Source: a virus
Virus record (IMG/VR): IMGVR_UViG_3300009514_000005
Span: 1-64,000 of that record
Direction: 5' to 3' (one strand)
DNA: 64,000 nt
Shown here: positions 3,353-61,052 of the stretch, one piece after another
How the letters are laid out: each line of letters opens with the position of its first letter
Position numbering within the stretch: the stretch's first letter is position 1
The notes under the pieces: generated by a model
What the model was told of the DNA's origin: nothing
Databases searched by the model: none
The model's input: only the letters and a program-made list of their open reading frames with translations
Translations under genes and position numbers: made by a program

Positions 3353-3921
3353 TAAGAAACACTTCTGGCAAAAACCTTAGCCACAGTCCTGGCCTCTTCA
3401 TGGTTTTTAATCTCGTAACCAACTCTTCTCATCTCTTGAGGAAGATCTTCAAAACCACTCATTCCCTCAGTGATCTTATCTCCTGGGGCCCAACCAAAGA
3501 TGGCCCGATGACTCCAGCCATACCATTTATCTTCAGACTCACAAAATCCAATAGAACAAACCGAATGATTTTTGTCAGCAAGCTCGGGCTGAATCCCACG
3601 CTTTTCCATGATCTCCTTGGCCTCGTCAGGGCCGCCAATGTATTCCCCTTTAAAAGTGTAGGCCGATTGTAATTCACAATCCTCAGTGCCAAAGGGCTCG
3701 CCATCTATAAGTTCTGTGCGGATCTCGTAGCCAGCCTTCTTCCTTCGCCTGGCCTTAATCTCTTTAATAGGAAGACTCTCGGTGATGGGACGATGATTCT
3801 TTTGGAATCCGTAACACATGAAGTCGTGAAACCAATTGCTTTCCCAAAGAGTTCTCCACTTGTCCAATTGATTGGAGCCCATGTTGTTGATCGCCTCTTC
3901 AAGTTTTTGCATTTGATTCAT
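3352..3921 (-). CDS. Conserved phage protein, 189 aa
   Basis: Carries a CSIGFCESEDKWYGWSHRAI segment that recurs in uncharacterised phage proteins, plus a basic stretch (RRRKK) near residue 60. Function unknown. One copy of the window-wide 14-bp palindrome lies inside its reading frame at 3863-3876. Confidence 0.75.
   Translation of the reverse strand: MNQMQKLEEAINNMGSNQLDKWRTLWESNWFHDFMCYGFQKNHRPITESLPIKEIKARRRKKAGYEIRTELIDGEPFGTEDCELQSAYTFKGEYIGGPDEAKEIMEKRGIQPELADKNHSVCSIGFCESEDKWYGWSHRAIFGWAPGDKITEGMSGFEDLPQEMRRVGYEIKNHEEARTVAKVFARSVS
3863..3876. repeat. 14-bp palindrome, copy 1 (TCCAATTGATTGGA)
   Basis: Exact copy of the dispersed palindrome TCCAAT-NN-ATTGGA. Here it is inside a coding region and reads through as SNQLD, so it was retained despite protein-coding constraint. 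Confidence 0.9.
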
Positions 3922-4118
3922 GATTTCCTCTCTTCCTCTACCCCGGCAATGACCCCATCGTAATAAGCTTCATACAAAAGTTTTGAAATATCCTCTTGAA
4001 TATCAGCAAACAAATCAATAATTGTTAAATCTAAATTATCCAACTCTCCCTCAATCTTATGCTGAAGTGCTTCCTTGTTCGACTGACTTAACTGTTTTTC
4101 TTTGCTTATCATAGACAT
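3918..4118 (-). CDS. Hypothetical protein, 66 aa
   Basis: Helical, acidic protein; the second half (LFADIQEDISKLLYEAYYDG) resembles a short coiled region. The start is uncertain: ATG codons at 4118 and 4112 lack a clear Shine-Dalgarno sequence. It overlaps the upstream gene by 62 nt and the downstream gene by 4 nt. Confidence 0.6.
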   Translation of the reverse strand: MSMISKEKQLSQSNKEALQHKIEGELDNLDLTIIDLFADIQEDISKLLYEAYYDGVIAGVEEERKS

Positions 4119-4560
4119 ATTGACTCAGTTGGTTATTAATCTCAACTTCCCAAATTGTAAAGCGCTGAGACTTTCTTTTCACAAAGCAAGCTTTGTTGTC
4201 TCTTATTAGATCAACTATTTCTTTTACATTATGAACAGTTGGAGCTTTTGGCTTTGGCTTCTCGGGTTCCTCAAAAGGATCTTCCACCCAGTCTTTATCT
4301 AAAAATGTCACTATGGTTTTTCTCAGCTTATCATAAACTACCGGGAGTCTTTCTCCCTGGAAGGTGACCCACCATTTCGAGACCCTATTGGATTGCTTAT
4401 CAATCAGGTGGGCGTAGCCCCTCTCGATCTGGCTCACCAGTAAAGCGTGATCCTCTTTCGTCATCGAGAGACCATACCTTTGCCAGAGCCTCTTCTTGGA
4501 GTGGAACTTCTGACTCTGGTCCTTGGTCATTTTTCTTTTGTTTCGCTTCGTCCTTGGCAT
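4057..4560 (-). CDS. Small phage protein with duplicated VYDK motif
   Basis: 167 aa with a basic N-terminus and a RERYG-like module: KRLWQRYGLSMTKEDHALL, then VSKWWVTFQGERLPVVYDK with a following RKTIVTFL. The motif recurs near the C-terminus as QYVYDKQRKTVKSV, suggesting an internal duplication joined by a Lys/Pro linker (EEPEKPKPKAP). Such modules occur in unnamed phage proteins. It overlaps the upstream gene by 161 nt. Confidence 0.7.
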   Translation of the reverse strand: MPRTKRNKRKMTKDQSQKFHSKKRLWQRYGLSMTKEDHALLVSQIERGYAHLIDKQSNRVSKWWVTFQGERLPVVYDKLRKTIVTFLDKDWVEDPFEEPEKPKPKAPTVHNVKEIVDLIRDNKACFVKRKSQRFTIWEVEINNQLSQYVYDKQRKTVKSVEQGSTSA

Positions 4561-4870
4561 TGAACCTAGATCTTAACCGATCAAACCTTTTCATGGTATT
4601 GGTAAACCAAACAGGAAAAGCCTCAGTCTCGTCAAACCATTTATTATATTCAACATAAGCTTCATGGGTCTTCTTGATTAATTTATTCCTGGCTCTCCAT
4701 GGATCATCTGAAAACTCTTTAGAGAAAGTAATGATTGCATCACACATTTTGTCTCTTAACTCCCAATCTTTAAACCTTAACCTACGTAGATAATCCTGAT
4801 GGAAATGATTAACACGGAGCATGATAAACAAGAAGGCTGTTGATAATAAGCAGACAACAACAAAAATCAT
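4400..4870 (-). CDS. Membrane-anchored hypothetical protein, 156 aa
   Basis: Residues 1-19 (MIFVVVCLLSTAFLFIMLR) form a single N-terminal membrane helix followed by a charged cytoplasmic or periplasmic domain. AAGGA stands before the ATG. The last 54 codons overlap the downstream gene in another frame; either both are translated there or this frame ends early through an error or frameshift. Confidence 0.6.
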   Translation of the reverse strand: MIFVVVCLLSTAFLFIMLRVNHFHQDYLRRLRFKDWELRDKMCDAIITFSKEFSDDPWRARNKLIKKTHEAYVEYNKWFDETEAFPVWFTNTMKRFDRLRSRFNAKDEAKQKKNDQGPESEVPLQEEALAKVWSLDDERGSRFTGEPDREGLRPPD

Positions 4871-4922
4871 TCAGTAATCCTTGGCCTTTTAGCCCCGTTA
4901 TCTCTATCCCAATCATTTATTT

Positions 4923-5198
4923 TCATGAAACCCTTGTCCTCGCTTTAATACCTTCGTGATGTTTCAGGTCCTCAGTGACAACTGGTATCTCCCACCAAAA
5001 TATCTCTTTACTCTTAGGGTCTTTTCTCAAAGTAAATATCCTTCCCTCTGAAGTCATTTCGCAATGCTCGACCTTTTGAAAGGTAGCCCCACAATCCCGA
5101 CACCAAATATAACAAACGCTTTGATCCCAATAATGATTCCCCGGATCCCTGGGATTATGATCTTTATTATTAATTTGAAAATGAACCTTGCCGCTCAC
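4923..5198 (-). CDS. Cys-containing hypothetical protein, 91 aa
   Basis: CYIWCRDCG at residues 29-37 gives CxxxCxxC, and HC lies at 45-46; together they could hold a zinc ion. The stop overlaps the next gene's stop region by 4 nt. No family recognised. Confidence 0.7.
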   Translation of the reverse strand: MSGKVHFQINNKDHNPRDPGNHYWDQSVCYIWCRDCGATFQKVEHCEMTSEGRIFTLRKDPKSKEIFWWEIPVVTEDLKHHEGIKARTRVS

Positions 5199-5551
5199 AA
5201 CTGATCCTCAAAATTTCCCTCAATATAAGAACCACATTCAGCACACCAGAAGAGTCCTTCGTGAGACGACTTGTCGATTCTACTTCTCGAACAACTATCC
5301 CAATGGTCAGGCCGAACCTTCTTTCCATCACTCATTCGGCCATGCTCATATCCAGTGATCTCAAAGAAATCTTCCTTGGTAATCTCATTGTAATTCTCTG
5401 CACTACCAGAATCGGATCCAACCTGACTAAACTCAGCCTTATGGTCTTCAGCTATATAACCCATTCCGTACATATGAGAATGAACCACCCCACAAATATA
5501 AATGGCCTTGTCCGATGTGTGCTTATAATATTTCCCTAATTCGAATTTCAT
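5195..5551 (-). CDS. Hypothetical protein with C-terminal CxxC, 118 aa
   Basis: Begins MKFELGKYYKHTSDKAIYI, a layout typical of small phage proteins with an N-terminal beta barrel. CAEC near residue 103 with C87 and H97 nearby suggests a zinc site. Function unknown. Confidence 0.7.
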   Translation of the reverse strand: MKFELGKYYKHTSDKAIYICGVVHSHMYGMGYIAEDHKAEFSQVGSDSGSAENYNEITKEDFFEITGYEHGRMSDGKKVRPDHWDSCSRSRIDKSSHEGLFWCAECGSYIEGNFEDQL

Positions 5552-5554
5552 AAT

Positions 5555-6330: not shown

Positions 6331-6412
6331 TTAACCCCGTAGTTCTTAAACCCTAATTTATTAATAAAATTATAAATTCCTTTTGGTTTATGCCTAGGAA
6401 CTCTCTATTTAC

Positions 6413-8437: not shown

Positions 8438-8793
8438 GCTAAACCCTCATGCAAGTTATCCATCATTTCTGCCATGAGGCTTTTAAGATCCGCCTCCTCC
8501 CACTTATCACCATTGTTCTCAGTATAAAAACCCCTTAAGAAAAATTTGTCATTCTCATCTTTAGAGCAGTCCACGATAAGACATCTGGCCTTATTGTTGG
8601 ATTCAACATAGACCGAGTATCTGTACAAGACATAATGCGCAGGGCTGTATTCATCAAAGCGAAACTCAACACCGTCTTCATGGTGCGTCCAATTGAGTGG
8701 ATACACGTCTTCCCTTTTGCCACCAAATTTTTCGATGTATTTATCCAGGAACTCTACGGATCTGCGCATCATATTGTCATTATCGTCAGCCAT
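8434..8793 (-). CDS. Hypothetical protein, 119 aa
   Basis: Acidic soluble protein (residues 1-25 helical, then VYPLNWTHHEDGVEFRFDEY). A one-mismatch copy of the palindrome (TCCAATTGAGTGGA) lies inside it at 8689-8702. No family recognised. Confidence 0.7.
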   Translation of the reverse strand: MADDNDNMMRRSVEFLDKYIEKFGGKREDVYPLNWTHHEDGVEFRFDEYSPAHYVLYRYSVYVESNNKARCLIVDCSKDENDKFFLRGFYTENNGDKWEEADLKSLMAEMMDNLHEGLA

Positions 8794-12219: not shown

Positions 12220-13320
12220 TTATCCTGGCCTTCTTCTTTGGGCCGCAGGTATCGACTGGCCAGCCTTGGGGTTAGGGAGAATCATAGAGGATGGATTAGT
12301 CGTGGGCCGCTGGGCGAGAACTGGGGCATTTTTTTCGCTACCTGGCGGCTCTGGTTCTTGATCTTCTTTTGGAATCACAGGAGGTTGCACTGGCTGCTCC
12401 ACTGGGTCCTCCGCTACCACGTCCTTCATCAGGTTAACCCCTTCAGGAATATCATCCAATGTTGGACCGGGCTCCACTTGATTGGACGGAGACATATTCA
12501 AATCAGGCGGCCTTTTTTTATTGTCTAGATGCGGTGAATAACTCTCGAGAACATTTTCAACTGTCTTCATGATTCTCATCCTAGAGGCAGGATCCTCCAT
12601 CATTTTATTAATTCCTTTCCTTTGGTAAAGCGTATCGAAATCATAGCCATGGTTTATTGGAGCAGAGGTGGCCTGATCTAACTGAGATTGAGTAAGCCCC
12701 TCGGCCTCTTTTATTTCCAGCAAAACTTTTAAATACTCCAAGGCAATCTTGAATTCCTTATTAGTTCCATTCAGTAAAAACTTAAGTTCCTTCTCTCGAT
12801 CCCATCCAATGTTCACTCTTTGCTTTTGGAGAAAGAAAAGATCCACACACTCCTGGAAGATATCTATCGATCGATTCATCTTAGTTTGCTGAGTGACAAG
12901 CCGTTTGATCGGAACCTGTTTGGCCATCAACATGCTTCTTGGGACCGTTGCCTTGAAGTGCTCCACCCAAGCTCGAATCGTTGCGACTTCCTGATCCATA
13001 TATTCATTGAGCTGTTGGATCTGACGAGCAACCTCTATCGATGGCAGCCCCATGAGGATCAACTCGTAAACAGCCGAGAAGTTCTTCAGCTTCTTAATCT
13101 TCTCAACCTTGTGACTCTTCACCCATGAGGGCCACGGAGTAAACATTTGATTAGGAGGAGCGATACACTCTATAGTGGCCCCAAGACTAAGACCAGCCGA
13201 GTAAGCCATAGCCTTAGGACCTTTGTCTTTAATGAACAACCCTAGACCAATCCCCCTTAAACTTGATGTTTTGATCTTGGTATCAACAGGCGACCCCTGG
13301 GCCTTATCAACAGTATTCAT
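12220..13320 (-). CDS. Hypothetical protein with Pro-rich tail, 366 aa
   Basis: The ATG at 13320 is preferred over an upstream TTG at 13359. Residues about 50-240 are helical with HTH-like stretches (GLPSIEVARQIQQLNEYMDQ); from about residue 270 the chain is rich in Pro, Gln and Glu (QPVQPPVIPKEDQEPEPPG) and ends basic (AAQRRRPG). It could be a DNA-associated or terminase-like accessory protein, but no diagnostic motif is present. Confidence 0.7.
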   Translation of the reverse strand: MNTVDKAQGSPVDTKIKTSSLRGIGLGLFIKDKGPKAMAYSAGLSLGATIECIAPPNQMFTPWPSWVKSHKVEKIKKLKNFSAVYELILMGLPSIEVARQIQQLNEYMDQEVATIRAWVEHFKATVPRSMLMAKQVPIKRLVTQQTKMNRSIDIFQECVDLFFLQKQRVNIGWDREKELKFLLNGTNKEFKIALEYLKVLLEIKEAEGLTQSQLDQATSAPINHGYDFDTLYQRKGINKMMEDPASRMRIMKTVENVLESYSPHLDNKKRPPDLNMSPSNQVEPGPTLDDIPEGVNLMKDVVAEDPVEQPVQPPVIPKEDQEPEPPGSEKNAPVLAQRPTTNPSSMILPNPKAGQSIPAAQRRRPG

Positions 13321-13435
13321 GGAACAACCTATGCTTAAAAATGGAACCTTTAGTTCCAAGTCTGACAGAACTCATATCCTAAGACAATCCTATTCATTCA
13401 GAATGTCCAGCTAATTGCTTTACAAATTTAATATG

Positions 13436-15476: not shown

Positions 15477-15490
15477 TCCAATTGATTGGA
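15477..15490. repeat. 14-bp palindrome, copy 2
   Basis: Exact TCCAATTGATTGGA with one further matching base pair on each side (C...G, 16 bp in all). It lies beside the phased TTCC array, about 96 bp before the ATG at 15381. Confidence 0.9.
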
Positions 15491-17112: not shown

Positions 17113-17126
17113 TCCAATTAATTGGA
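17113..17126. repeat. 14-bp palindrome, copy 3 (perfect TA centre)
   Basis: TCCAATTAATTGGA, the only copy with a fully symmetric centre, in the 44-bp gap between two genes. Confidence 0.9.
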
Positions 17127-20474: not shown

Positions 20475-20488
20475 TCCAATCAACTGGA
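20475..20488. repeat. Palindrome copy with one mismatch
   Basis: TCCAATCAACTGGA: one base differs from the consensus. On the minus strand its end supplies GGAG for the 58-aa gene, the same position seen at 46246, 52040 and 61039. Confidence 0.75.
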
Positions 20489-25284: not shown

Positions 25285-25447
25285 AAATATCCAACCAATA
25301 TCCAATTTCTAGCATTAACTTATAGCAAATTTCTTAGATTGATTCATGTGTTTACAATAACTTACAAATCAAAAACCCCATTTTTTCGCATTAACTACTA
25401 GCAATTCTCTGCACTAACTACTAGTAAATATCCAGCCAATATCCAAT
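25285..25447. repeat. Intergenic repeat cluster
   Basis: Two 22-bp direct repeats (AAATATCCA then CCAATATCCAAT with one variable base) at 25285-25306 and 25426-25447. Three 17-bp repeats of the type GCAYTAACTNNTAGYAA at 25312-25328, 25388-25404 and 25411-25427. A palindrome copy adjoins at 25442. This would be the promoter/operator region of the methyltransferase genes downstream. Confidence 0.8.
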
Positions 25448-25455
25448 CAATTGGA
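25442..25455. repeat. 14-bp palindrome, copy 4
   Basis: Exact TCCAATCAATTGGA. On the minus strand its TCCAATTGA supplies the last two codons and TGA stop of the gene ending at 25447. Confidence 0.9.
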
Positions 25456-25647
25456 CTTTTGACACTCCCCACAAGACCGGGATAATCCATTGGTTAAATT
25501 CCTCACGTTGACCCACTTCTGCATCCCACACTCACATACGCAAAGCCAATGAATGTGCTGACTTTTCTTAGCGTATTTTCTTTTCCACTCACCCATCACT
25601 GTCCACTCCCCAAACTTCTTCCCCGTTAGATCCAATCTTTTTGGCAT
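25447..25647 (-). CDS. AP2/HNH-associated zinc domain protein, 66 aa
   Basis: Pattern LTGKKFGEWTVMG...WLCVCECG followed by LTNGLSRSCGEC is the small domain found at the N-terminus of phage AP2/HNH homing-type endonucleases. Here it stands alone with no nuclease following, so it may be a remnant or a free DNA-binding unit. The upstream gene overlaps it by 59 nt. Confidence 0.7.
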   Translation of the reverse strand: MPKRLDLTGKKFGEWTVMGEWKRKYAKKSQHIHWLCVCECGMQKWVNVRNLTNGLSRSCGECQKSN

Positions 25648-29638: not shown

Positions 29639-30529
29639 TTATATTTCAAAAGTTTCATCAACCTTCACTCCAATAAAATCCTCAAGACTGATCGGACCAT
29701 TCTTATCAGCAAACATGGTATGACCAATCTCTTTTTCCTTTTCAACATACTGCTTAAAAACATTGGGATTTTCTTTTGCAGAGACCCTAAGATCACTCTT
29801 CTTTGCCATGATACAAAACATACAACTTAATCGACTCATCCCTTTTGCATAGGCCCAATGTAATCTTTGACCAGCATCCTCGACAACACCGAGAAGATCT
29901 TCCAGCGAATAATTAAAAATAGGATACCAATCATAAACAAATCTTTTTCCATTAGGCTTGCTAAGATTATTAACCCTTTTAACTCTCCCTTTTTTATCCA
30001 GCTTTCCTTCTGGATGATTCATTTTTTCAAACAAAGCAAGACGTTTGCTAAGACCAATAGTGAGGGCTTCGCCAGTTTTCTTGAAGTGATCTTTATCAAC
30101 ACCTTGCTTTCGGCCATCAGATTCACCGGCTCTGATTCCAACACAGTTCACGGCATACTTAGCACCACGCTCTTTCATGATTGCACGAATGAGAACATCG
30201 ATTGGGCCAGTCTTTTGGCCGGAAGTACACTGACGGTACTTGGGCGATGGCCACATCCCACGCTTGGTAACCATCTCCATAAAGGTTTCATTGGCCACGA
30301 CAACCCTAAGATCGTGATCGCCAACAGTTGCCTTAATGTGATCAAAGGTTCCAGACCAGTCTGCCCCTGGAAGATCAGCATGAACCACGACGATCTGACT
30401 CTTGGGAACGATCCTTTCGATCTCGATCATCTGGGCTTGGGAGTCCTTGCCTCCTGAATGACTCACAAAAAATATGGCCCCTAAGTCTATCAATTTTTTT
30501 ACTTCATCCAGATTTACTAAGCCCCTCAT
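29639..30529 (-). CDS. PAPS-reductase-fold (ATP-pyrophosphatase) protein 1
   Basis: 296 aa. SGGKDS at residues 25-30 is the PP-loop of adenine-nucleotide alpha-hydrolases, the next strand VVVHADLPG carries the expected acidic residue, and SCMFC near the C-terminus gives a CxxC metal or thiol site. The family includes PAPS reductases and DndC-type sulfur-transfer proteins; phages often carry members of unknown substrate. It has its own promoter (30562-30590). Confidence 0.85.
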   Translation of the reverse strand: MRGLVNLDEVKKLIDLGAIFFVSHSGGKDSQAQMIEIERIVPKSQIVVVHADLPGADWSGTFDHIKATVGDHDLRVVVANETFMEMVTKRGMWPSPKYRQCTSGQKTGPIDVLIRAIMKERGAKYAVNCVGIRAGESDGRKQGVDKDHFKKTGEALTIGLSKRLALFEKMNHPEGKLDKKGRVKRVNNLSKPNGKRFVYDWYPIFNYSLEDLLGVVEDAGQRLHWAYAKGMSRLSCMFCIMAKKSDLRVSAKENPNVFKQYVEKEKEIGHTMFADKNGPISLEDFIGVKVDETFEI

Positions 30530-30693: not shown

Positions 30694-31656
30694 TTAAGAA
30701 AAACTCTTTAGATTTGGGACTTTTAGCTCCCCTTCGGAATAGCCAGACCCAAGGGCCATGATCCCCTTGCGATTCATTACAGATGCCTGATATTTCTTAT
30801 ATGACTTCAGGGATCTCAGCCAAGCCAGTATAAAAAGCTTCTGCTGCCCAAGAGAGGCATTTTCCAAAACACCCTTCCAATGGAGTGCATTTCTCCTGGA
30901 GTCCTTCCAGGCGGCATAAGAGCTATCCCTAGAGGCACACCAGTTAAGTATCTGAGACAAGACATAAGTAAGCCCATCGGTTCTTATCCGCTCAGATACA
31001 ATTTGATAGCTCAATCCTTTCAGGCTTCCGTTTTGAACCACCACGTCAAAGAAGAAACAAAATTCACTAAACAGTATTGGATCATCCCAAGATATTTCTT
31101 CTTCGCCCTGCTTCCATCCAATACCATAACGAAGGGCTCTCTCCCCGATCTCCAAAGATTCTTCTGTCTGGATCTTAATCATTTCTTTTGATCCCCAAAG
31201 GGATTGAAGCTCCTTAATATAAGGGCTTAAAACTTTCGATCCTCTAGACCATGTAGCGATTTCTTTAAAGCTATCGCTAGGTCTTTGATTCACTAAATAA
31301 AGATAATCATCTCCAAGGGTAGGCATATATGCATAAAGCAAGTCACGGCCAAACTCTAAGACAAATTTTTGAACTAATCTCTGATGATCACCCAGGCCCC
31401 ATGTCCATCCAAGTGCCCCAGCGGTTAGGCCCATGTTATCAAAATTTCCAACTATATTTGAAAAAGGATCACCATTACCCTCAAAATCTGAGGATATCTT
31501 TAAAGCACAACACGTTGCCGATTTTAAATTCGTCTCGTCGACAAGATTATTTATAGGCGTCTCGCTAAGCACTGCATCACCATCGGATCCTCCAATTGAT
31601 TGGACCTCTTCTATTGCTATAGGTTTTCTTTTTTTTCTAAACCAACCAAAACACAT
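30694..31656 (-). CDS. Probable cell-wall lysin, 320 aa
   Basis: A segment at residues about 50-90 reads ISSDFEGNGDPFSNIV then GNFDNMGLTAGALGWTWGLG. This Glu-Gly then GNFD...GLT.GALGW pattern occurs in lysozyme/chitosanase-like peptidoglycan hydrolases of phages, with the Glu as presumed catalyst. The basic N-terminus (FRKKRKP) and lack of a signal peptide fit an internal or virion-carried enzyme. Alternative: an unrelated helical protein. Confidence 0.6.
   Translation of the reverse strand: MCFGWFRKKRKPIAIEEVQSIGGSDGDAVLSETPINNLVDETNLKSATCCALKISSDFEGNGDPFSNIVGNFDNMGLTAGALGWTWGLGDHQRLVQKFVLEFGRDLLYAYMPTLGDDYLYLVNQRPSDSFKEIATWSRGSKVLSPYIKELQSLWGSKEMIKIQTEESLEIGERALRYGIGWKQGEEEISWDDPILFSEFCFFFDVVVQNGSLKGLSYQIVSERIRTDGLTYVLSQILNWCASRDSSYAAWKDSRRNALHWKGVLENASLGQQKLFILAWLRSLKSYKKYQASVMNRKGIMALGSGYSEGELKVPNLKSFS
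31591..31604. repeat. 14-bp palindrome, copy 5
   Basis: Exact TCCAATTGATTGGA inside the N-terminal coding part of the lysin gene, read as QSIGG. Confidence 0.9.
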
Positions 31657-31734: not shown

Positions 31735-31766
31735 AAGGACCGGAGCAAGGAAGCTTCCCGGTCCTT
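31735..31766. terminator. Strong G+C-rich hairpin after parB-like gene
   Basis: AAGGACCGG pairs with CCGGTCCTT across 14 nt. TTTATT follows on the plus strand and only TTAAGC on the minus strand, so it may slow or terminate transcription from either side. A second inverted repeat (TTAATCC/GGATTAA) lies at 31710-31729. Confidence 0.55.
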
Positions 31767-32545
31767 TATTGTTGAGAAGCCAATAAAGTCTCCATCTTCT
31801 GAGCCAACCCCTGAAGTAACGGCTGCAATTCATTATTCACATCAACACCAACCTTAGCCGAAGCATCGACAATAATCTTTATCGCGTTAAAAGTTTCAGT
31901 ATTAGCATGAATCAAAACATGATCTTTTTTACCATGAGAAAAAATTACAAAATTACTCGACAAAGAATTCCCGTGGTCCTTAAATATCCGGTCCAAAAAG
32001 CTGGCAAACTTATCGGGACTATTTTTTATCGACTCACTGTTCTCTAATTTGTTGATTAAGTTATCCGGAAGACCTGAGTTTTTCAGTTGCTTTGAAACAT
32101 CCTTCACCATCTTCTTCCAAACATTATCCTGAGTAACGGCAAAAATCTGCTGCAAAGAATCGTGTCCAAACTTCTGGGACATTCTCTCATACATTTTAAC
32201 AAATTTATCATTATTAACCTTTCCCTGAATCGCATTAAGACGAAAGGTAACCAAATCAAAAAGATCTCGATCCTGCCATTTTTCATCAGTATGAACAACC
32301 GCTGGGATATATTCCAGCCCAGCAATCTTGGCCGCTCTCCATCTGTGCTCCCCGCCAAGAATTATATAATTACCATCTTCTTTCGGAACGACATTGATTG
32401 GATCTAAAAAACCAACTTCCCTAATCTCTTCAGCAAGCCTTTCTAAAGTCTTTTCATCCATTTGATTGGTGTTATCTTCATTTGCAATTAATGCATCAAC
32501 ATGAATATCAACAGACTTTAGCGATCCTTCTTTAGTCTTCTCCAT
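31766..32545 (-). CDS. ParB-like DNA-binding/CTPase-fold protein
   Basis: 259 aa. The N-terminal domain has LIANEDNTNQM and the box II motif GGEHRWRAAK (about residues 64-73), which binds CTP in ParB. The usual ParB HTH is not obvious; the rest is helical. Phage ParB-like proteins may partition, load or nick DNA. Start at 32545 with GGGAG upstream. It is a candidate reader of the window's dispersed palindrome, though nothing in the sequence proves this. Confidence 0.85.
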   Translation of the reverse strand: MEKTKEGSLKSVDIHVDALIANEDNTNQMDEKTLERLAEEIREVGFLDPINVVPKEDGNYIILGGEHRWRAAKIAGLEYIPAVVHTDEKWQDRDLFDLVTFRLNAIQGKVNNDKFVKMYERMSQKFGHDSLQQIFAVTQDNVWKKMVKDVSKQLKNSGLPDNLINKLENSESIKNSPDKFASFLDRIFKDHGNSLSSNFVIFSHGKKDHVLIHANTETFNAIKIIVDASAKVGVDVNNELQPLLQGLAQKMETLLASQQ

Positions 32546-33401
32546 CACTATTCTCCCTAGATGTTATCTCGGCCAAATAATCTGATCCGTATAAAATCTC
32601 TCTTTCTTCATCATCAAACACAACAATCCTTAGCCCAAAAATACTTTCATACTTTTTCAAAAAACCAACAGCAAAGTCTTTTCCTTCTTCATCAAAGTTG
32701 TTGCTGCCAATAAAATCCTGAGCAATACAAGCCAGAGCCCCGCCATTTGTAATCCCGTTGCTAGTTTCCTTAACCATGTCAATAGCTTTTCCAACGGTAA
32801 TATGATCCTGGGCAGAAAATGAAAATGAAACATGCTTTGTGGATGCTTCTGCTCCGGTTCCACTAATATTATCTGAAATTTCTTCTGCCCTTTTTCCGGC
32901 CTCCTGAGGATCATCCGGGATAAGACTTTTCAAATATCTTTTTACTTCTTTATTTAAAGTCTCAACATTCATACTTTGAGCCTTATTCACCCACTCATCT
33001 ACGTTTTCATGGTTGGCAACATGAACTAACTCTTTAGCCTTGCTCCATCCGACTGACATCACCTTTTCGAAAACAGATTTATTGCTTTGGCGATAATAAA
33101 GAAGCTCATAAATCTGAATCAGATAAAGAGCCTTTGTGATTTTAAACTCCACCTCAATAGAAACATATTCCTTAAAGCTTCCATAATTCCAATTTCGGAA
33201 CCATTCCTTTTTATTCACACACCAAAGAAGATGACACAGTTCACGGTAATCGTTATCAATGCGATCTCTAAGCTCTTTGACTCGGTCCCTGACATTATTT
33301 GAATCCATCCCATCAACTGTATTCTCAACCGCAATCATTGGCTGAGTGTCTGGAACAAATTCCTGAACACTGGTTTCATCAACAACATCTTCATTAGACA
33401 T
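32532..33401 (-). CDS. Putative DNA-binding partner of ParB-like protein, 289 aa
   Basis: Helical core WNYGSFKEYVSIEVEF...VGWSKAKELVHVANHENVDE resembles an HTH region found in phage proteins next to ParB-like genes. Overlaps the ParB-like gene by 14 nt. The C-terminus is acidic. Function inferred only from context. Confidence 0.65.
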   Translation of the reverse strand: MSNEDVVDETSVQEFVPDTQPMIAVENTVDGMDSNNVRDRVKELRDRIDNDYRELCHLLWCVNKKEWFRNWNYGSFKEYVSIEVEFKITKALYLIQIYELLYYRQSNKSVFEKVMSVGWSKAKELVHVANHENVDEWVNKAQSMNVETLNKEVKRYLKSLIPDDPQEAGKRAEEISDNISGTGAEASTKHVSFSFSAQDHITVGKAIDMVKETSNGITNGGALACIAQDFIGSNNFDEEGKDFAVGFLKKYESIFGLRIVVFDDEEREILYGSDYLAEITSRENSDGED

Positions 33402-33412: not shown

Positions 33413-34258
33413 TTATACTTCAGCGAAACAAAGACTCGACACAGAACACTCTTTAGCCTTCTTGCATTTTGAAGTATCACAAGCAGTTCTTGGCGGAAGA
33501 ATTTTAGTGTCTAGTCCGTTCTTTACAGATTGTATCTTTGACCTCACATCTTCAATAAGTATTTTATCAAATCTTTGAACGTACTGCGTAATAAGGCTTT
33601 CATCCTTGTCAAAATAAACAATGATCCCTCTGGGTATTTGAGCAAGCCACATATAAATATTAGTCTGATATTTATGAGACTCTAACGCATTACGCCTTTG
33701 ATTGGTAATATATCGGAACGCCTGGCCATTAGAAGTTTTTAACTCGAGCAGCCATTCGGCTCCATCATAAGGAGACACAATAATTCCATCCGGTTTAGCG
33801 CTTATAGGATAACCTTCTGGCCCATGGAACTTCATCTCTTGGTATCTAAATTCGGATTCAGCCTTGCATCCATCATGACAAGTTTTTGGCCTCAAGCAAT
33901 TATGATAGCTTTTGCCACAAGCCAAACAATGCCAATGCCCCTTAAGCCATCCCCATTTTCCAAACCAATTATCCTGAGCCCATTGATGAAAAGCGTTGCC
34001 AACATCAAAAGTCATCTGAAGATTATGAGAAATTGTCTCTGTCTCTTGAATATTATTAAGGCTTCTCAACACTTCCTTGCGCGGACAAAGCTCATACATC
34101 CTAGATGGCCAAAAATTATCACCAGGCTTGTGAGGCTCGCGGATTCTTTCAGTTGTTAATTTCTTTTTAGTCTCCACCAAAAGATCAAAATCTTGTGTGG
34201 TATATTTTTTAAGCTTGGGGCTCATGCCAGATGATTTCAAAACTGAAGCTAAGCTCAT
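33413..34258 (-). CDS. Cas4/RecB-like exonuclease with Cys cluster
   Basis: 281 aa. Motifs in order: GNAFHQW (His), AKPDGIIV (Asp), WLLELKTSN (ExK), then YQTNIYMWL (QxxxY). A C-terminal run of four Cys (CDTSKCKKAKEC...C) could hold an Fe-S cluster as in Cas4. A second Cys/His block (CLACGKSYHNC...C) is inserted before the nuclease core. Likely a 5'-3' DNA exonuclease used in recombination. Overlaps the upstream gene by 4 nt. Confidence 0.85.
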   Translation of the reverse strand: MSLASVLKSSGMSPKLKKYTTQDFDLLVETKKKLTTERIREPHKPGDNFWPSRMYELCPRKEVLRSLNNIQETETISHNLQMTFDVGNAFHQWAQDNWFGKWGWLKGHWHCLACGKSYHNCLRPKTCHDGCKAESEFRYQEMKFHGPEGYPISAKPDGIIVSPYDGAEWLLELKTSNGQAFRYITNQRRNALESHKYQTNIYMWLAQIPRGIIVYFDKDESLITQYVQRFDKILIEDVRSKIQSVKNGLDTKILPPRTACDTSKCKKAKECSVSSLCFAEV

Positions 34259-35402: not shown

Positions 35403-36086
35403 TTAAGCTTCAGCCTTTGCTTCTTTTTTCTGCCTAGCCTGACCAGCCACGATCCTTAAGTGATCACTCTGGACCAAAGTAACGCCTGCAATCTTAGCGT
35501 TCTTGTCTTCTCGGTTAGCATTTTCTTCTTTAAGTTTTTTCTTGATGGCTGTTTTGTCAATAGATACCGAAACGCAGCCATCAATTAACTCCTTTTCTTC
35601 GGGAGTAATATCATCACCCATCTCACGACCTATTACAAGATTACACCAATCTTTCCATCTTTCTTTATCCGTAAAAGAAAACTTATCCTTTACGGAAACA
35701 TCATAATTTTTATACTCATCTGGGACCTCTTCTTCGTTATCGATACGAAGAGATGGAGTGCTGTTTTGGATTCTGGCAACATAAGCCATTCCGTCAATAC
35801 GCTTTTTCTTATTCATGCTAACGGCTTGATAGGTAAGCTCCTTAGTCAAAGAAATTCTAGAGTTAACGGCCTCAATTTGTTTTTTAAGGGCAATCAAATA
35901 AGAATCAAGACCGCTTAAATACATCGCTACTTTATCAATCTTTCCGCCAACAATGTTTTTAGCTTGCTCATGCAGCTCTAAAAGATCATCACCAACTGAT
36001 CCACCCTGCGATTCTATTTCGGCCTCTATTGCAGCAAAATTCTCAGCCAACTCCATCAACGAATACTTTCTACTAACTAATTCCAT
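35403..36086 (-). CDS. Gp157-family protein
   Basis: 227 aa from the ATG with GGGAGGT upstream. Layout matches siphovirus Gp157: helical start (AIEAEIESQGG), a KIDKVAMYLSGLDSYLIALK helix, then NSTPSLRIDNEEEVPDEYK followed by DKTAIKKKLKEEN and GVTLVQSDHLRIV. An extra acidic insert lies in the middle. Family function unclear, usually encoded with recombination genes. Confidence 0.8.
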   Translation of the reverse strand: MELVSRKYSLMELAENFAAIEAEIESQGGSVGDDLLELHEQAKNIVGGKIDKVAMYLSGLDSYLIALKKQIEAVNSRISLTKELTYQAVSMNKKKRIDGMAYVARIQNSTPSLRIDNEEEVPDEYKNYDVSVKDKFSFTDKERWKDWCNLVIGREMGDDITPEEKELIDGCVSVSIDKTAIKKKLKEENANREDKNAKIAGVTLVQSDHLRIVAGQARQKKEAKAEA

Positions 36087-37488
36087 AATGTAACCTCCCG
36101 CGTTTTTTTGTTCTTTTATATTCATCAAAGTCTTCGAAAACTTGTTCTCCAAAAACTTCCCATCCTTTTGCTTTGTATTTGTTTCGCCTCGAGTTAGCCA
36201 AGATCATTGCGTCTGGAGACTGAGAATCAACCAAATCTAAAACAATTGGCTGTTTCTTCCCTTCCAACAACCTCAGGATTCTACCTACTGGCTGCTCAAT
36301 CGCTTGAGAAGGAGAAGCGAAAATAAGAGTATCGAGGCGCTCAACGTTAAATCCAACTCCAACCAATTGGGTAGTGGCACAAATAACCTTGGCCTTTACC
36401 CCCTCTTCTCTTTCCTGCTTATTTCTTTTACCCGTTAAAAGACCGACAGTGATTCCGGTCCCATCTAGCCTATTCAAAAGTTCATAATAAATATCCTCTA
36501 TATGACCAACCCTCTCAGATAGAATCAAAATGTTTCTACCAGCTTTAGCCGCCTTAACTGATTGCCTGTAAATGATTTCATTTCTAGTGCTAGACTTAAC
36601 CATGGATTTCAAAATCCAATTCTTTTTCCTATCAAGGCTTGCGGTGCTATTCGATGTCCATGTAAAACCAGTATCCACAAAATAAATCTTTGGCTCTAAT
36701 ATCTTTACTGTGTTCATCCCGGAAACAACCGGACCAACATTATACTTAAAAACATCTTCAGCGTTATCTGCTCTCTTTAAAGTACCTGAGAGCCCCAAAA
36801 TATATCGAGCGCCAAAACGGGGAACTGCTTTGGAAAACTCTGGAGCCCCCAGGAGATGACATTCATCACAAATGATGAGGCCAAATTCTTCAAAAACCCA
36901 AGGTGAATAATATTTTTGTGAAAGACTCTGAACCATTCCTATACAAATGTCGTTACCCTTTATCTCCATCTTGTCAGCAAAGAGTCTTCCGTATTTCCAG
37001 GTTGGAAGGAATTTTTTAATACCATCCTCAATCCATTGATCAAGTAAAACAGAAGTATGAACAATAACTAAAGTTTTAACATTTAATCTTCTAGCTATTT
37101 CTAAAGATAAAAAAGTCTTGCCTCCGCCTGTTTTGACTTCAGCAATAGCGCCACCAAAATGGTTCTCCTTCATTGCTTCAATACATTTAACAATGATCTC
37201 TTCCTGACCTTCTCTTGGACAGCAAACTGCATTGGCAGAAGAAACATCGCTGCTTGAAAAACAAGGTGCGAACTCCCCTTCAACATGATTGCGAAGATAA
37301 GTAACGTAGTAACCACGAGGAACGCCAACCCAATCACCCTCTTCCGCCCAAAGATGAATTGGTTCAATTTTTTCCTGAAACGAAGTAGTCTTCCTCGGGA
37401 TGATAGTGAGATCTTGTTTGATCTTCTCACGCATTCCAAAGCCTACAGCGTTACGCTTAAAGCGCACATATCCTCGTGGTATTGGCAT
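36073..37488 (-). CDS. SF2 DEAD/H helicase, UvsW/XPB-like
   Basis: 471 aa. Motif I TGGGKT (about 120-125), motif II DECH, motif III LSGTLKRADN, motif VI QPVGRILR, with a unique 100-residue N-terminus. This arrangement is like T4 UvsW, which unwinds branched DNA and R-loops in recombination-driven replication. Gp157-like and SSB-like genes flank it. Confidence 0.9.
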   Translation of the reverse strand: MPIPRGYVRFKRNAVGFGMREKIKQDLTIIPRKTTSFQEKIEPIHLWAEEGDWVGVPRGYYVTYLRNHVEGEFAPCFSSSDVSSANAVCCPREGQEEIIVKCIEAMKENHFGGAIAEVKTGGGKTFLSLEIARRLNVKTLVIVHTSVLLDQWIEDGIKKFLPTWKYGRLFADKMEIKGNDICIGMVQSLSQKYYSPWVFEEFGLIICDECHLLGAPEFSKAVPRFGARYILGLSGTLKRADNAEDVFKYNVGPVVSGMNTVKILEPKIYFVDTGFTWTSNSTASLDRKKNWILKSMVKSSTRNEIIYRQSVKAAKAGRNILILSERVGHIEDIYYELLNRLDGTGITVGLLTGKRNKQEREEGVKAKVICATTQLVGVGFNVERLDTLIFASPSQAIEQPVGRILRLLEGKKQPIVLDLVDSQSPDAMILANSRRNKYKAKGWEVFGEQVFEDFDEYKRTKKRGRLHYGIS

Positions 37489-46245: not shown

Positions 46246-46259
46246 TCCAATCAATTGGA
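46246..46259. repeat. 14-bp palindrome, copy 6
   Basis: Exact TCCAATCAATTGGA, with GGAG on the minus strand 6 nt before the paralogue's ATG. Confidence 0.9.
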
Positions 46260-46488: not shown

Positions 46489-47376
46489 TTAATATTTACT
46501 CATTACGCAATGACCATGAGACATCTTATACTCTTTAAGCTCCTCATCAGTCATATAACCATATTTAGCAACCGCTTCATTAAGTTTTTCTGGCAAAAAT
46601 TTACGACCCCAAACTCCAAGGTTTTTATTTCCCTTATCCTCATTGGCTTTTAATTTGTTTTCTTCTATTCGAACCCAATCTTGATAGTCTTCCGGATGAA
46701 ACCTATAGAGCCAAAGTAATTCAATCTCGTTCATAAATGGACAAAGAATACAATTTGATGGAACCGGAACTTGGTTACCAGTTGAAGAAATATATTCCTG
46801 GCATCCTTTTCTGTCTAAACCAAGATCCACCAGTGGATAAATATGATTAATGGATTTTTTTCTCCACTTCATGGAATCCTTAGATGGATCTGCCATTCTT
46901 TTTTCTTCTCCAGAGGCAATACCAATCATCATTTTAATTTTTCCATACCGCTCTGCAAATCGAAGAAAGGCTTTCTTTCTTCCTTTGTCAACTCCATATT
47001 TCTTATGAAGCCAATCCTCTAAAAATTTATAGATAGGTTGAATCTTAAGTTTATCAGTGCAGGTTTTAGGGAAAGCTTTGGATCCAACAGTATTTTTAAG
47101 ATTATAAAAACCTCTCAACGACTGCCAAGAATCATAATGATATCCCATGTCACTGGTAAGGTGAACAAACTCAATTTTGTTTTTACCGCAAAATTTTTTA
47201 ATATTTTCAACATGACTATAAGTGTCCCGATGTTCATCACCAGTATCAGACATAATTACCAAAAAATCATTTGGAGCATATTTAGATCGGAACCCCTGAT
47301 CGTAAACATATTTGTAAAGGAGAGTAGTTGAATCCTGCCCTCCTCCAAATGATAAAATCGTTAACTGATCACTCAT
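46489..47376 (-). CDS. PAPS-reductase-fold protein 2
   Basis: 295 aa. PP-loop variant FGGGQDS at residues 10-16, the conserved ISDTGDEHRDTYSHV-type second motif (here IMSDTGDEHRDTY), CxxC in NCILCPF, and a C-terminal SHGHCVMSKY, typical of a common phage family annotated as PAPS reductase. True substrate unknown. Confidence 0.85.
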   Translation of the reverse strand: MSDQLTILSFGGGQDSTTLLYKYVYDQGFRSKYAPNDFLVIMSDTGDEHRDTYSHVENIKKFCGKNKIEFVHLTSDMGYHYDSWQSLRGFYNLKNTVGSKAFPKTCTDKLKIQPIYKFLEDWLHKKYGVDKGRKKAFLRFAERYGKIKMMIGIASGEEKRMADPSKDSMKWRKKSINHIYPLVDLGLDRKGCQEYISSTGNQVPVPSNCILCPFMNEIELLWLYRFHPEDYQDWVRIEENKLKANEDKGNKNLGVWGRKFLPEKLNEAVAKYGYMTDEELKEYKMSHGHCVMSKY

Positions 47377-52039: not shown

Positions 52040-52053
52040 TCCAATCAATTGGA
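52040..52053. repeat. 14-bp palindrome, copy 7
   Basis: Exact TCCAATCAATTGGA. Minus strand: its TGA is the RusA stop, and its end GGAGG is the ClpP ribosome site. Confidence 0.9.
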
Positions 52054-53935: not shown

Positions 53936-54116
53936 ATTCATCAAAAAGCTCTATATCGAAATAATCAACGTAGTCCTTCCAGTTTACTCCGTATAGCTTA
54001 TAGATCTCTCTCACTTTTAAAACAATGGATTTCTTTGTGATCTTTTCATGTGCTCGTAAAAGCTTCACAATGGCAAAAATAATAACCTTGTCAGTTAACT
54101 TAAAATCAATCCTCAT
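53898..54116 (-). CDS. Hypothetical protein, 72 aa
   Basis: Basic helical N-terminus (KLTDKVIIFAIVKLLRAHEK) and acidic C-terminus. Overlaps the upstream gene by 11 nt. No family recognised. Confidence 0.65.
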   Translation of the reverse strand: MRIDFKLTDKVIIFAIVKLLRAHEKITKKSIVLKVREIYKLYGVNWKDYVDYFDIELFDESKKIAGKYWVFS

Positions 54117-54897
54117 TTTTTACCACCCTCACTTTATCGCTTACAAGAGGAGCCCCATCAGGTCCTTTCTCATGATCCTTCACCCAAGTATATCCCTCAA
54201 CACAATACTGGTCTTCACGATCTTTCCCAAGCCCATTATGCTTTCTCCAGTGACCTCTTACTAGCCATCTATGACTCCAATCAATTGGAAAGGCACGTTT
54301 AGGAGTATAATTAGGTCGATTCTTTTTTGGAGTTACATGAATTATTTTCCTTATTTTAATCATCTCCCTGTCTTTACCTGATCCGATTCTTATTTTTTCA
54401 TTAACTTTCTGCTCACCTTTTGACTCTTGCTTGAATCTGTTTAGGAAATTATCTAATATAAAATCATTAGCGACCCCATCAGCATGAGCATCCACCGGAA
54501 AAGAAAGAATATGCGATGTTTTATCTGTCTGAATAAGATTGTAAAAATGAAATTTACCAGGTTTTTTCTCAACACAAACAATACAAGCAGTATAAACCTT
54601 AAGAGGATCATCATCTTTTGGAACCGATACCCATCCATTTAAATATTCATAAGAGCAAACCTTAAAAGGTGCCCACAGTTTTGCATCAATATTTTGTTCA
54701 GCATCTAAAGGATTTTGAGGATCAGAAAGACTATACACAAATGGCTTAACTTTTTTGATGTATCTAGAAAATTCCCCAACCTCTTCCTTGGTAGCCTCCC
54801 TGAGCTGCTTTGCCTCAGGATTACAATGAATGCACTGGAAAACCATAAAGTTTTTAGGGTTTCTGGCAACCTCAATCATTTTTTTCAACTGAATCAA
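54106..54897 (-). CDS. Conserved phage protein, 263 aa
   Basis: The C-terminal half has IDWSHRWLVRGHWRKH then YCVEGYTWVKDHEKGPDG, a block found in uncharacterised actinophage and prophage proteins. N-terminal Cys/His (CIHC) may bind metal. Function unknown; a palindrome copy lies inside. Confidence 0.7.
   Translation of the reverse strand: MIQLKKMIEVARNPKNFMVFQCIHCNPEAKQLREATKEEVGEFSRYIKKVKPFVYSLSDPQNPLDAEQNIDAKLWAPFKVCSYEYLNGWVSVPKDDDPLKVYTACIVCVEKKPGKFHFYNLIQTDKTSHILSFPVDAHADGVANDFILDNFLNRFKQESKGEQKVNEKIRIGSGKDREMIKIRKIIHVTPKKNRPNYTPKRAFPIDWSHRWLVRGHWRKHNGLGKDREDQYCVEGYTWVKDHEKGPDGAPLVSDKVRVVKNED
54276..54289. repeat. 14-bp palindrome, copy 8
   Basis: Exact TCCAATCAATTGGA within the gene above, read as PIDWS. 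Confidence 0.9.
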
Positions 54898-57063: not shown

Positions 57064-57077
57064 CACCGCCTCCGTTA

Positions 57078-57755: not shown

Positions 57756-57761
57756 ACCTAG

Positions 57762-57790: not shown

Positions 57791-57871
57791 GAGGTTTTAT
57801 TGACATAACGTAGGACAAAAATAGGTCTAGGATTTCAGTGAGATAAGAGCCAGGACCGCTGGCCCCAAAGA

Positions 57872-58604: not shown

Positions 58605-58608
58605 GTTA

Positions 58609-59013
58609 TTATGCCCTCATGAAAATTGGGGGTACAATCCAAATAAGATCACCTGGATTGGCTGGGTCAAAACTAACAACAGGACTACTCGAATCATAAA
58701 ACTTTAAATTATCCATATCTAGAGCGTAAATTTTAAAATCAAGTTTTTTATCCAAAGTATCCAAACAAAGTTTTTTTAGCGTAAATAATTCATCATCTTC
58801 AGATAATGGTATTTGTTCTTCAGAATCCAAATCTATTTCATACTTAGGTAGCAATACAAAAAAATCCCATTCCTCTTCTTCTTCGTCATAAGGTAAAACA
58901 TCAACTCGATAAGCAGAAAAATCACGCGGTATAATCGAACCCCATTCTGGGTCAAGCCTTCTGTCTAGATTTATTCTTGGCCGTTTTACCTCTCTAAATT
59001 CTTCTTTCTCCAT
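58609..59013 (-). CDS. Acidic hypothetical protein, 134 aa
   Basis: EEEEEW-type acidic run near residue 45, beta strands after. No family recognised. Ends 5 nt from the next gene. Confidence 0.65.
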   Translation of the reverse strand: MEKEEFREVKRPRINLDRRLDPEWGSIIPRDFSAYRVDVLPYDEEEEEWDFFVLLPKYEIDLDSEEQIPLSEDDELFTLKKLCLDTLDKKLDFKIYALDMDNLKFYDSSSPVVSFDPANPGDLIWIVPPIFMRA

Positions 59014-59044
59014 AGGTATATTTTACCCCAGGATAAGAAAATCA

Positions 59045-59248
59045 TCATACAGCAATTTGAATTCTGTCTCTTGCTCCATTTAATATTTTGCGAATTACTT
59101 CTGATCTAGAGCTTACATCGAGATCATCTTTTACCTTATCAATCCAGCCAACCATTTCTTGAGACATGCGCAAATAGATCATAACGTCTTTGGTATCTTT
59201 GCCCTTCTCTAATATAATATCTTTTTTAGGACTTTTTTTCTTACTCAT
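59045..59248 (-). CDS. Ribbon-helix-helix DNA-binding protein, 67 aa
   Basis: DVMIYLRMSQEMVGWIDKVK then DVSSRSEVIRKILNG is a CopG-type RHH layout, with a Lys-rich N-terminal extension. Probably a repressor; overlaps the upstream gene by 8 nt. Confidence 0.75.
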   Translation of the reverse strand: MSKKKSPKKDIILEKGKDTKDVMIYLRMSQEMVGWIDKVKDDLDVSSRSEVIRKILNGARDRIQIAV

Positions 59249-59636
59249 TTTTATTCCCTCCGTTCAATACGCTTCGTAATGGGGGTTGCTGATTCCCTGG
59301 CATTTGAAGCCCCATGCGTTCTGCCCTTATTTTTGTAAGTAATGTTTCATAAGATGCTATCTGTTTTTTATCAAAATCATTTTCAGGATCTAAAAACCCA
59401 TGAGTTAAAAAATCATCAAAATTAAACTTACAGCTATTTGATCCAATAAATAAATGATCAGGATATAAATAAAACTGATGATTCCCTGGAGCCATCGGAA
59501 CCTCAATTCCTCTGATAACATTCCTTAGAGTTACCATTGTTTTTCCTTCGTCTTCTTCAACATATTTCCCGAAGACATAGGCCGTAACGCCTGGCGAAGG
59601 ATCCTTTAAAGCACCAACCCATATTTTATCTTTCAT
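59241..59636 (-). CDS. Hypothetical protein, 131 aa
   Basis: Beta-rich N-terminal half (DKIWVGALKDPSPGVTAYVF) and Asn/Gly-rich end. Overlaps the epimerase gene by 11 nt. No family recognised. Confidence 0.65.
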   Translation of the reverse strand: MKDKIWVGALKDPSPGVTAYVFGKYVEEDEGKTMVTLRNVIRGIEVPMAPGNHQFYLYPDHLFIGSNSCKFNFDDFLTHGFLDPENDFDKKQIASYETLLTKIRAERMGLQMPGNQQPPLRSVLNGGNKNE

Positions 59637-60621
59637 TTAATTTCTCCTTATACCAATCAACAGTTTTAATTAGATCATTCATAAAGGTTTTCTCTTCCAT
59701 ATAATTTTGGAGCCCAAAATCATCCGTTGTGTTTCTTCCTAGAGCATAACGAACATCATGACCAGGTCTATCCGCTATGGACTTAATTAGCTCTTGAGGT
59801 TTGCCTAATAAACCAAGGATTAATCGAGCCATAACAATATTTGGAATCTCCTGGGTTCCGGTAATATGAAGGACTTCTCCCGGAGGAAAGAAGGTTGCTA
59901 TGGAAACATCTCTCGTAAATTTACAAACATGATCGATATGGACCCATTCCCTACTTTGATATCCGTCACCATAAATAGGGATGCTCTCATCTTGAAGGGC
60001 CTTCCTGATAACGGTAGGAATAAATTTTTCATCATGCTGATAAGGGCCAAAAATATTTACACATCGAGTCGTAACAACCGGAAGAGAAAAGGTCTTAATA
60101 TAGGCTTGGGCCAAGCATTCCTGGGCTGCTTTTGTTGCCGAATAAACGGACCCACAATTAAAAACGGATCGTTCATAAGCCTTACCCTCGGAAAGACAAG
60201 CGACAACCTCATCAGTGCCGAATAAAAGAATCTGCTCTAATTCCTTGATCTCTCTAGCCACCTCAAAAAGTTCAAGGGTTCCTCTTACGTTATCGTCGAC
60301 GAATTGCCTTGGGCCCATAATAGAGCGATCAACATGAGACTGAGCAGCCAAGTGAATAATTCGATTAAATCCCTGTTCTTTGCAAAATTTTTTCAAATCT
60401 CTTCCGAAAGTTCCAAGACGATACGTAACCGTTTTTTCTCCTTCATTATAAAGAAACGTAAAATCATTTATTTTGCTTGTATCGAAGGTATTGATCTCGT
60501 CAATGCCTGGCCTTAAGTTATCCATATCGAGGCCGATAACTTCAAAACCATCAAATGATCTCAAGAAAGGAATTAGATTTCTTCCAACAAATCCATCAGA
60601 ACCAGTAACTAAAATTTTCAT
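59626..60621 (-). CDS. NAD-dependent epimerase/dehydratase, RmlB-like
   Basis: 331 aa short-chain dehydrogenase. GSDGFVGRN (7-15) is the NAD loop; catalytic YSATK (YxxxK); HLAAQSHVDRSIMGP and TTRCVNIFGPYQHDEKFIP typical of dTDP-glucose 4,6-dehydratase. The catalytic Asp-Glu pair is approximated by GTDEVVA. Probably makes a sugar nucleotide for the glycosyltransferases at 38.6-41.6 kb. Confidence 0.85.
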   Translation of the reverse strand: MKILVTGSDGFVGRNLIPFLRSFDGFEVIGLDMDNLRPGIDEINTFDTSKINDFTFLYNEGEKTVTYRLGTFGRDLKKFCKEQGFNRIIHLAAQSHVDRSIMGPRQFVDDNVRGTLELFEVAREIKELEQILLFGTDEVVACLSEGKAYERSVFNCGSVYSATKAAQECLAQAYIKTFSLPVVTTRCVNIFGPYQHDEKFIPTVIRKALQDESIPIYGDGYQSREWVHIDHVCKFTRDVSIATFFPPGEVLHITGTQEIPNIVMARLILGLLGKPQELIKSIADRPGHDVRYALGRNTTDDFGLQNYMEEKTFMNDLIKTVDWYKEKLNER

Positions 60622-60656
60622 AAAAAAAGCTCCTAAAGGTATAACCTATAAGGAGC
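60622..60656 (-). terminator. Intrinsic terminator overlapping epimerase SD
   Basis: On the minus strand GCTCC and GGAGC enclose a second stem TATAGGT/ACCTTTA (one T-T mismatch), followed by TTTTTTT and then ATG. The 3' arm contains AGGAG, the epimerase ribosome site, so termination and translation are linked. Confidence 0.8.
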
Positions 60657-60691
60657 CTATACAGAGTGTAATGTTTGTGCAAGACAAAGTG

Positions 60692-61030
60692 TTAAACAGC
60701 GCTTACCGAAAACTTAGCATGACTACCGTCAACTAGGGATTTAATCCTAACGCCTCTTTTCCCTGGATTACGAATAACCCGCTCTGATCCAGCCCTAACG
60801 ATTCCGCCTGCCTCTTCGTTGCCGCTTTGGTTAACCCATTGATAGGCAATATCATTTGCGGCATCTTCGTTTTCTATATGGATAGAGCTGGCCTGAAACC
60901 CAAATGCGAAATCATTGTCGGCAAAATTATTTGTCGATGTTTCTTCGCCACTAAAAAAGAAATAATCTGTAACCGAATTTCCGAATCCCGATGTTTTACC
61001 CGAAAACTCTCCTGTTCCTGACACGCTCAT
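60692..61030 (-). CDS. Possible virion protein, 112 aa
   Basis: Gly/Ser/Asn-rich beta-looking protein (MSVSGTGEFSGKTSGFGNSV, IENEDAANDIAYQWVNQSG) ending in KFSVSAV, like tail or capsid decoration proteins. No firm family. Begins the structural side of the window. Confidence 0.5.
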   Translation of the reverse strand: MSVSGTGEFSGKTSGFGNSVTDYFFFSGEETSTNNFADNDFAFGFQASSIHIENEDAANDIAYQWVNQSGNEEAGGIVRAGSERVIRNPGKRGVRIKSLVDGSHAKFSVSAV

Positions 61031-61038
61031 AATCTAAC

Positions 61039-61052
61039 TCCAATTGATTGGA
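61039..61052. repeat. 14-bp palindrome, copy 9
   Basis: Exact TCCAATTGATTGGA; minus-strand GGAG lies 8 nt before the ATG at 61030, and the upstream gene ends 1 nt away. Confidence 0.9.

Follow-up and report, generated by a model that had tools for sequence, protein, structure and literature searches.

KorB of the IncP plasmid RK2 acts from OB operators that precede promoters by either 4–10 bp or 45 to >1000 bp (PMC11790492), and the stoperators of the L5 repressor in cluster A mycobacteriophages are many phage-wide sites, most of them outside promoters, with the repressor gene located by a cas4-family gene (PMC6550527). The cognate site of Noc in Bacillus (NBS, Noc-binding site) is a 16-bp palindrome centred on a pyrimidine–purine (YR) step and dispersed over the whole replicon. 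Here we describe a 14-bp palindrome, TCCAATYRATTGGA (TCCAAT-YR-ATTGGA), scattered over the phage genome IMGVR_UViG_3300009514_000005 of the IMG/VR database (G000; full record 134,619 bp), of which positions 1 to 64,000 form the window analysed, together with a 289-aa protein, here called X, encoded at 32532..33401 on the minus strand. We propose that the palindromes are operator-like sites of X acting as a genome-wide silencer or roadblock, and give this reading as a whole a probability of about 0.7. That X is the protein binding the palindromes appears very probable; silencing or roadblocking has about an even chance of being its main role, and organisation or partition a clearly smaller one.

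Nine exact copies were found in the window, at precisely the positions reported by an earlier, sequence-only reading of this DNA, and 16 in the whole record, where 0.037 are expected under a dinucleotide model and none appeared in 20 order-3 Markov simulations. When up to two mismatches were allowed, the window contained 20 matches compared with 6.8 in dinucleotide shuffles (the maximum of 100 shuffles was 13). No other palindrome of the 6+2+6 type occurs more than twice in G000. The centres of the 16 exact copies are all YR (TG/CA in 13, CG in two and TA in one), possibly because a protein that binds with two-fold symmetry and bends or opens the central step would favour YR.

Scanning of IMG/VR with the 14-mer returned mainly chance singletons, and two further contigs full of copies, G062 (23 exact copies in 102 kb) and G071 (12 in 94 kb). 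The array of G062 (L228-L232) is unusually dense, with 61 TCCAAN4TTGGA sites in 100 kb, or approximately one per 1.6 kb. What G000, G062 and G071 have in common is mainly a replication and recombination module that includes X, and X is the candidate DNA binder present in all three as well as in G002, the relative of G000 described below. X matches the profile of PHROG_17202, a family of unknown function, with E = 4e-22 (its G071 ortholog with E = 1.6e-65). The sequence-only reading had proposed that the palindrome is recognised throughout the genome by a protein of this phage, perhaps a regulator, which agrees with these results, and had named ParB-like or ribbon-helix-helix (RHH) proteins as the binder, for which X is the better supported candidate.

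Relatives of X were found in cultured phages of Stenotrophomonas, Vibrio, Rhizobium, Rhodobacter and Aeromonas. The sequence TCCAATNNATTGGA occurred in none of the ten isolate records checked, and the palindromes of the isolates were found by a de novo scan to which the motif was not supplied. A multi-copy dispersed palindrome of the form TSCAA-N4-TTGSA was present in all 13 X-bearing phages that were read at length. The scan detected TGCAAT-2-ATTGCA 25 times in DLP3, TGCAATTAATTGCA 25 times in V-YDF132 and GTGCAA-4-TTGCAC 11 times in RHph_Y1_11, and similar sites of the same architecture in RcZahn, JP1, HJ05 and RcDurkin, and two of the 13 phages carry degenerate versions (42 vs 0.8 expected in KarBoss, 15 vs 0.6 expected in 1.215.A). 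No such palindromes were seen in Kitkat, which lacks X and encodes a relative of the ParB_N protein neighbouring X in G000, or in immuto, which also lacks X.

The same association was observed among uncultured phages. An IMG/VR scan with the X sequence yielded 80 loci, and in 50 X-bearing records (3.61 Mb) TGCAAN4TTGCA occurred 680 times, at least two sites being present in 42 of the 50, compared with one occurrence of the reversed control; 45 records not chosen for X, some of which may nevertheless include it, contained two. Five site-poor X records were read at length and four of these carry sites with other outer bases (GGCAAT, GCAAT, CGCAA), such as GGCAAT-2-ATTGCC in 46 copies. In a metagenome-assembled genome of 4.1 Mb, 25 of the 27 sites were located on the 95.6-kb contig carrying X. 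A relative of X is also encoded on a 109-kb plasmid record of Rhizobium bangladeshense (NZ_CP071625.1, 49063-49587), possibly a phage-plasmid, and another lies with a cluster of TGCAAN4TTGCA on a chromosome contig of Reyranella massiliensis (NZ_HE997181.1, ~2.57-2.69 Mb), suggesting an integrated prophage. DLP3 forms lysogens, and its relative DLP5 was obtained as a phagemid (PMC7326821, PMC5834331). At least some X phages are temperate, which fits silencing and organisation alike.

The base that distinguishes the two main site types, TCCAA and TGCAA, changes together with one residue of X. Position 89 is Arg in 82 of 89 X proteins and Ser or Thr in all four TCC phages, G000 having T89 (codon 33135-33137). 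Among 225 alignment columns this position was the top separator of TCC from TGC (48 proteins; Fisher p = 2.6e-5, uncorrected for kinship). Three branches of a maximum-likelihood tree of X, each of them well supported, carry the TCC sites, and on every one the change from TGC to TCC is matched by a change from Arg to Ser/Thr; L358, the nearest relative of G071 on this tree, has Arg and 22 TGC sites. In ParB, residue R173 of the recognition helix forms a bond with a guanine close to the outer edge of the parS half-site (PMC7383237), an apt parallel to the proposed role of residue 89 in X.

The structure model of X (pLDDT 84) places the helices of a helix-turn-helix (HTH) at residues 76-84 and 88-103, so residue 89 lies one residue into the latter, the predicted recognition helix, at its N-terminal end. 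In a Foldseek search against the PDB only Noc (7nfu, probability 0.89) and Caulobacter ParB (6t1f, probability 0.82) stood out, with E-values of 1.5-2.1. Thus, the ParB suggestion of the sequence-only reading seems to have been structurally near the mark, since the modelled domain of X resembles Noc/ParB, although the wrong gene was named. No Pfam domain was matched in X, the ParB CTPase domain included. PF02195 sits instead in the neighbouring ParB_N (CTPase-fold-like) protein (31766..32548, minus strand, 260 aa; E 4e-15), whose gene shares 17 bp with the end of X and which is a possible partner; downstream of its ParB_N domain no HTH domain was detected. Relatives of this protein occur in most X phages, and in V-YDF132, JP1 and RcDurkin they are encoded adjoining the large terminase gene or one gene from it. 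An RHH domain at the C-terminus of X was considered and rejected, as the model has no strand before the helices at 197-213 and 219-233.

Eight of the 13 phages have a site in the 250 nt preceding X, where 0.88 are expected, and none of 200,000 simulations reached eight. In V-YDF132, 13 of the 25 sites are intergenic (6% expected) and about half are intragenic; a start codon follows within 100 nt downstream of 16 sites (3.5 expected), and 11 sites are followed by a TTGACA/TATAAT-like pair, nearly always 7-10 bp after the site. When the 13 phages were pooled, 23 of 49 promoter-like matches had this 7-10 bp offset. The promoter-proximal geometry was seen in V-YDF132, KarBoss and 1.215.A, and few promoter-like matches were found in G000, DLP3, JP1 and others; outside the Vibrio phages most sites lie at gene junctions or within genes. 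In seven of 11 genomes, including G000, the sites are spaced more evenly than random placement would give (p < 0.01).

The sites, their distribution, their association with X and the matched switches are results of computation; from them we infer that X, by a predicted ParB/Noc-like HTH domain and without a CTPase domain, binds TSCAA-N4-TTGSA, probably as a dimer. The G of TGCAA would be recognised by the Arg located where the recognition helix begins, and TCCAA goes with Ser/Thr in that position. X probably controls its own promoter, and may cover the entire phage genome as a silencer or transcription roadblock in the manner of KorB operators or mycobacteriophage stoperators. A genome-wide silencer appears to be the most likely role because some sites immediately precede −35 boxes and many are found inside genes or where two genes meet, and the even spacing suggests that X may also organise or mark the DNA.

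The likeness to KorB consists of the predicted HTH resembling that of the ParB family, the dispersed palindromic sites on one mobile genome and, in the Vibrio phages, the frequent position of the sites 7-10 bp upstream of a −35 box. However, KorB has its own CTPase domain, which X lacks, and the sites of X are more numerous (~10-60 per genome) and often intragenic, with no KorA partner known. Noc is the closest PDB fold match to X, and its dispersed YR-centred palindrome resembles the sites described here; 14-16 bp palindromic cognate sites, a trait of ParB and Noc, are present in X phages (TTGCAATTAATTGCAA, TCCAATYRATTGGA, etc.). In contrast to Noc, X has no ParB_N domain, is unrelated by profile search and has sites near promoters. 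With the CTPase domain missing from its chain, X is not counted among the ParB proteins, although its mode of action may be like that of KorB or Noc. With the stoperator system X shares many non-promoter sites, probable autoregulation and an adjoining cas4-like gene, encoding a Cas4-like exonuclease (33413..34258, minus strand) common to all 13 X phages compared. Stoperators, however, are asymmetric and mostly in one orientation, whereas the sites of X are palindromic and their half-site core is kept across very distant phages; as the sites are symmetric, the X system is not one of cluster A stoperators.

Several results weigh against the proposed function of X. Since the Foldseek E-values exceed 1, the likeness to Noc and ParB is a resemblance and not a proof, and a profile search of PDB sequences with X found neither of them. 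Two of the 44 TGC phages have a residue other than Arg at position 89, namely RcDurkin (Ser) and JP1 (Ala), and three switching events are too few for significance by a sign test. When columns were tested in 13 genomes, other module proteins also had separating columns, one in DnaB being equally good; that test is therefore not decisive, and the 48-protein test and the tree are better evidence. The divergent X record G138, read at length, showed no site family. Neither G000 nor G002 has a site in the 250 nt preceding X, in G000 none is near X at all, and the promoter association of the G000 sites is weak. In four genomes the spacing is no more even than random.

Among other explanations, a Noc- or partition-like system deserves the closest consideration, although we regard it as a tentative one. 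X bound along the whole genome would then serve in DNA organisation, condensation, segregation or marking, with the ParB_N protein as a possible separate clamp and the phage tubulin as a possible motor; regulation would be secondary. Even spacing over whole genomes, across structural and replication genes alike, is consistent with such a role, as are the intragenic position of about half of the V-YDF132 sites, the Noc/ParB-like fold of X, the overlap of its gene with the ParB_N gene in G000, the tubulin/TubZ-like GTPase encoded by G000 and G002, and the isolation of the related phage DLP5 as a phagemid (PMC5834331, PMC7326821). On the other hand, the promoter-proximal geometry in the Vibrio phages and the likely autoregulation point to transcription control, no relative of the ParB_N protein was found in G071, and the tubulin gave no tblastn match among INPHARED phages, thus it is not a general part of the system. 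The two roles would be combined in a more speculative scheme, a ParB in two pieces, where X reads the DNA and the separate ParB_N protein is the CTP clamp, so that X at evenly spaced sites loads or positions clamps genome-wide, silencing and organising the DNA in phages of many hosts. The ParB_N protein as the binder itself is very unlikely: its family name, its presence in most of the phages and its position adjoining X would suit that task, but its relative in Kitkat occurs without such palindromes, the 12 exact sites of G071 occur without a detectable relative, and no HTH was detected in it.

The small RHH-like proteins encoded from 59045, 61053 and 85320 were likewise rejected as binders, as they have no detectable counterpart in the site-bearing G062 and G071. 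It is improbable, too, that the sites serve a different module protein (the Cas4-like nuclease, helicase, primase, DnaB or a protein like the single-stranded DNA-binding protein SSB) or a host protein, with X merely co-travelling. The module is indeed common to all 13 X phages and X has no known function, but the other members are enzymes, and X has the predicted HTH, the matched switches and the sites at its own promoter. The site is maintained across hosts as unrelated as Vibrio, Stenotrophomonas, Rhizobium and Rhodobacter, which speaks against a host protein. The counts refute an origin by chance, by codon bias or as an RNA hairpin signal. In favour of such an origin, some copies provide the GGAG of a ribosome-binding site and a 5-bp stem is possible in the RNA. 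Against it, the excess is hundreds-fold, the copies occur in more than one reading frame and on both sides of genes, the differences between homologous sites always preserve the palindrome, and in other phages the arrangement is the same with one base changed.

Binding and silencing by X would give PHROG_17202 both a probable function and a DNA target, neither of which is attached to it by any source found, and no description of these sites in a phage context was found in the literature. The family reaches phages of Vibrio, Stenotrophomonas, Rhizobium, Rhodobacter, Agrobacterium and Aeromonas and dozens of uncultured phages. The predicted recognition rule is simple (Arg with TGCAA, Ser/Thr with TCCAA) and directly testable in cultured phages, and it would offer a natural series of specificity switches beyond the classic ParB/Noc pair. 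In these phages it should also be practicable to examine whether control of a phage genome is achieved by blanketing it with sites at regular intervals.

The sites were also compared between G000 and G002 (160 kb), its sole long relative in IMG/VR, whose portal protein is 52% identical. The sequence-only reading had named a lack of site conservation in close relatives as one outcome that would refute it; G002 contains 21 exact copies, all with YR centres, so this test does not refute it. Gene order is mostly kept between the two genomes and most sites are at different places. Conservation of an intragenic site at a synonymous position, which that reading had regarded as informative, was seen at 119122 of G000 and 133374 of G002, where the sites occupy the same codon and frame of orthologous helicases (FQSIGV) and a synonymous TCA to TCG change keeps the palindrome. 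A two-mismatch site of the window (36358..36371, in the helicase 36073-37488) is at the same codon as the exact site G002:68623, and for the one-mismatch site at 12473..12486 (ORF 12220-13359) the G002 ortholog has an exact site in another alignment column. The head and tail genes of G000 are T4-like (portal, tail sheath). No exact copies were found in the distant portal relatives immuto, Mel-JY01, RM378 and SP-15 or in 30 records with tail-sheath relatives. T4-like structural kinship was rejected as the carrier of the motif, as these distant relatives lack sites and unrelated siphovirus-type phages with X have them.

Three exact sites of the window lie within genes and are read there as the sequence-only reading had given them: 3863..3876 (TCCAATTGATTGGA) as SNQLD in ORF 3352-3921, 31591..31604 as QSIGG in ORF 30694-31656, ~160 bp downstream of the ParB_N gene, and 54276..54289 as PIDWS in ORF 54106-54897. 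Its observation that four sites supply a GGAG 6-8 nt before an ATG also agrees with the sequence. At 46246..46259 the ATG (46239, minus strand) is 6 nt away, as it is at 52040..52053 (ATG 52033), a site overlapping the end of the upstream gene; the distance is 8 nt at 61039..61052, in the intergenic region between 60692-61030 and 61053-61259, and at the one-mismatch site 20475..20488 (ATG 20466). The remaining exact copies are at 15477..15490 (TCCAATTGATTGGA), 17113..17126 (TCCAATTAATTGGA) and 25442..25455 (TCCAATCAATTGGA). The last is followed 3 nt later by a strong promoter-like match on the plus strand, TTGACA-N17-GATAAT (site and match together 25442-25490), the strand opposite to the neighbouring genes. 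The near matches previously listed at 20475 and 22155 were correct, those at 8689 and 12475 actually begin at 8688 and 12473, and one at 62349 had been overlooked.

The three small RHH-like proteins (59045-59248, 61053-61259 and G000 85320-85547) are conserved in G002; two of them gave sub-threshold matches to Pfam RHH_1, and 61053-61259 gave none. Outside the window, the tubulin/FtsZ/TubZ-like GTPase is encoded at 117022-118236 of G000 (L003:13022-14236; Pfam Tubulin 3e-13, TubZ-like_C 1e-5) and is 47% identical to its counterpart in G002 and 49% to that in the fragment L008. The putative large terminase subunit (1028 aa, G000 113863-116949, L003:9863-12949) has an HNH endonuclease-like insert, probably an intein, and its G002 ortholog is shorter (~680 aa). 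Two PAPS-reductase-like genes are present in G000, at 29639-30529 and 46489-47376.

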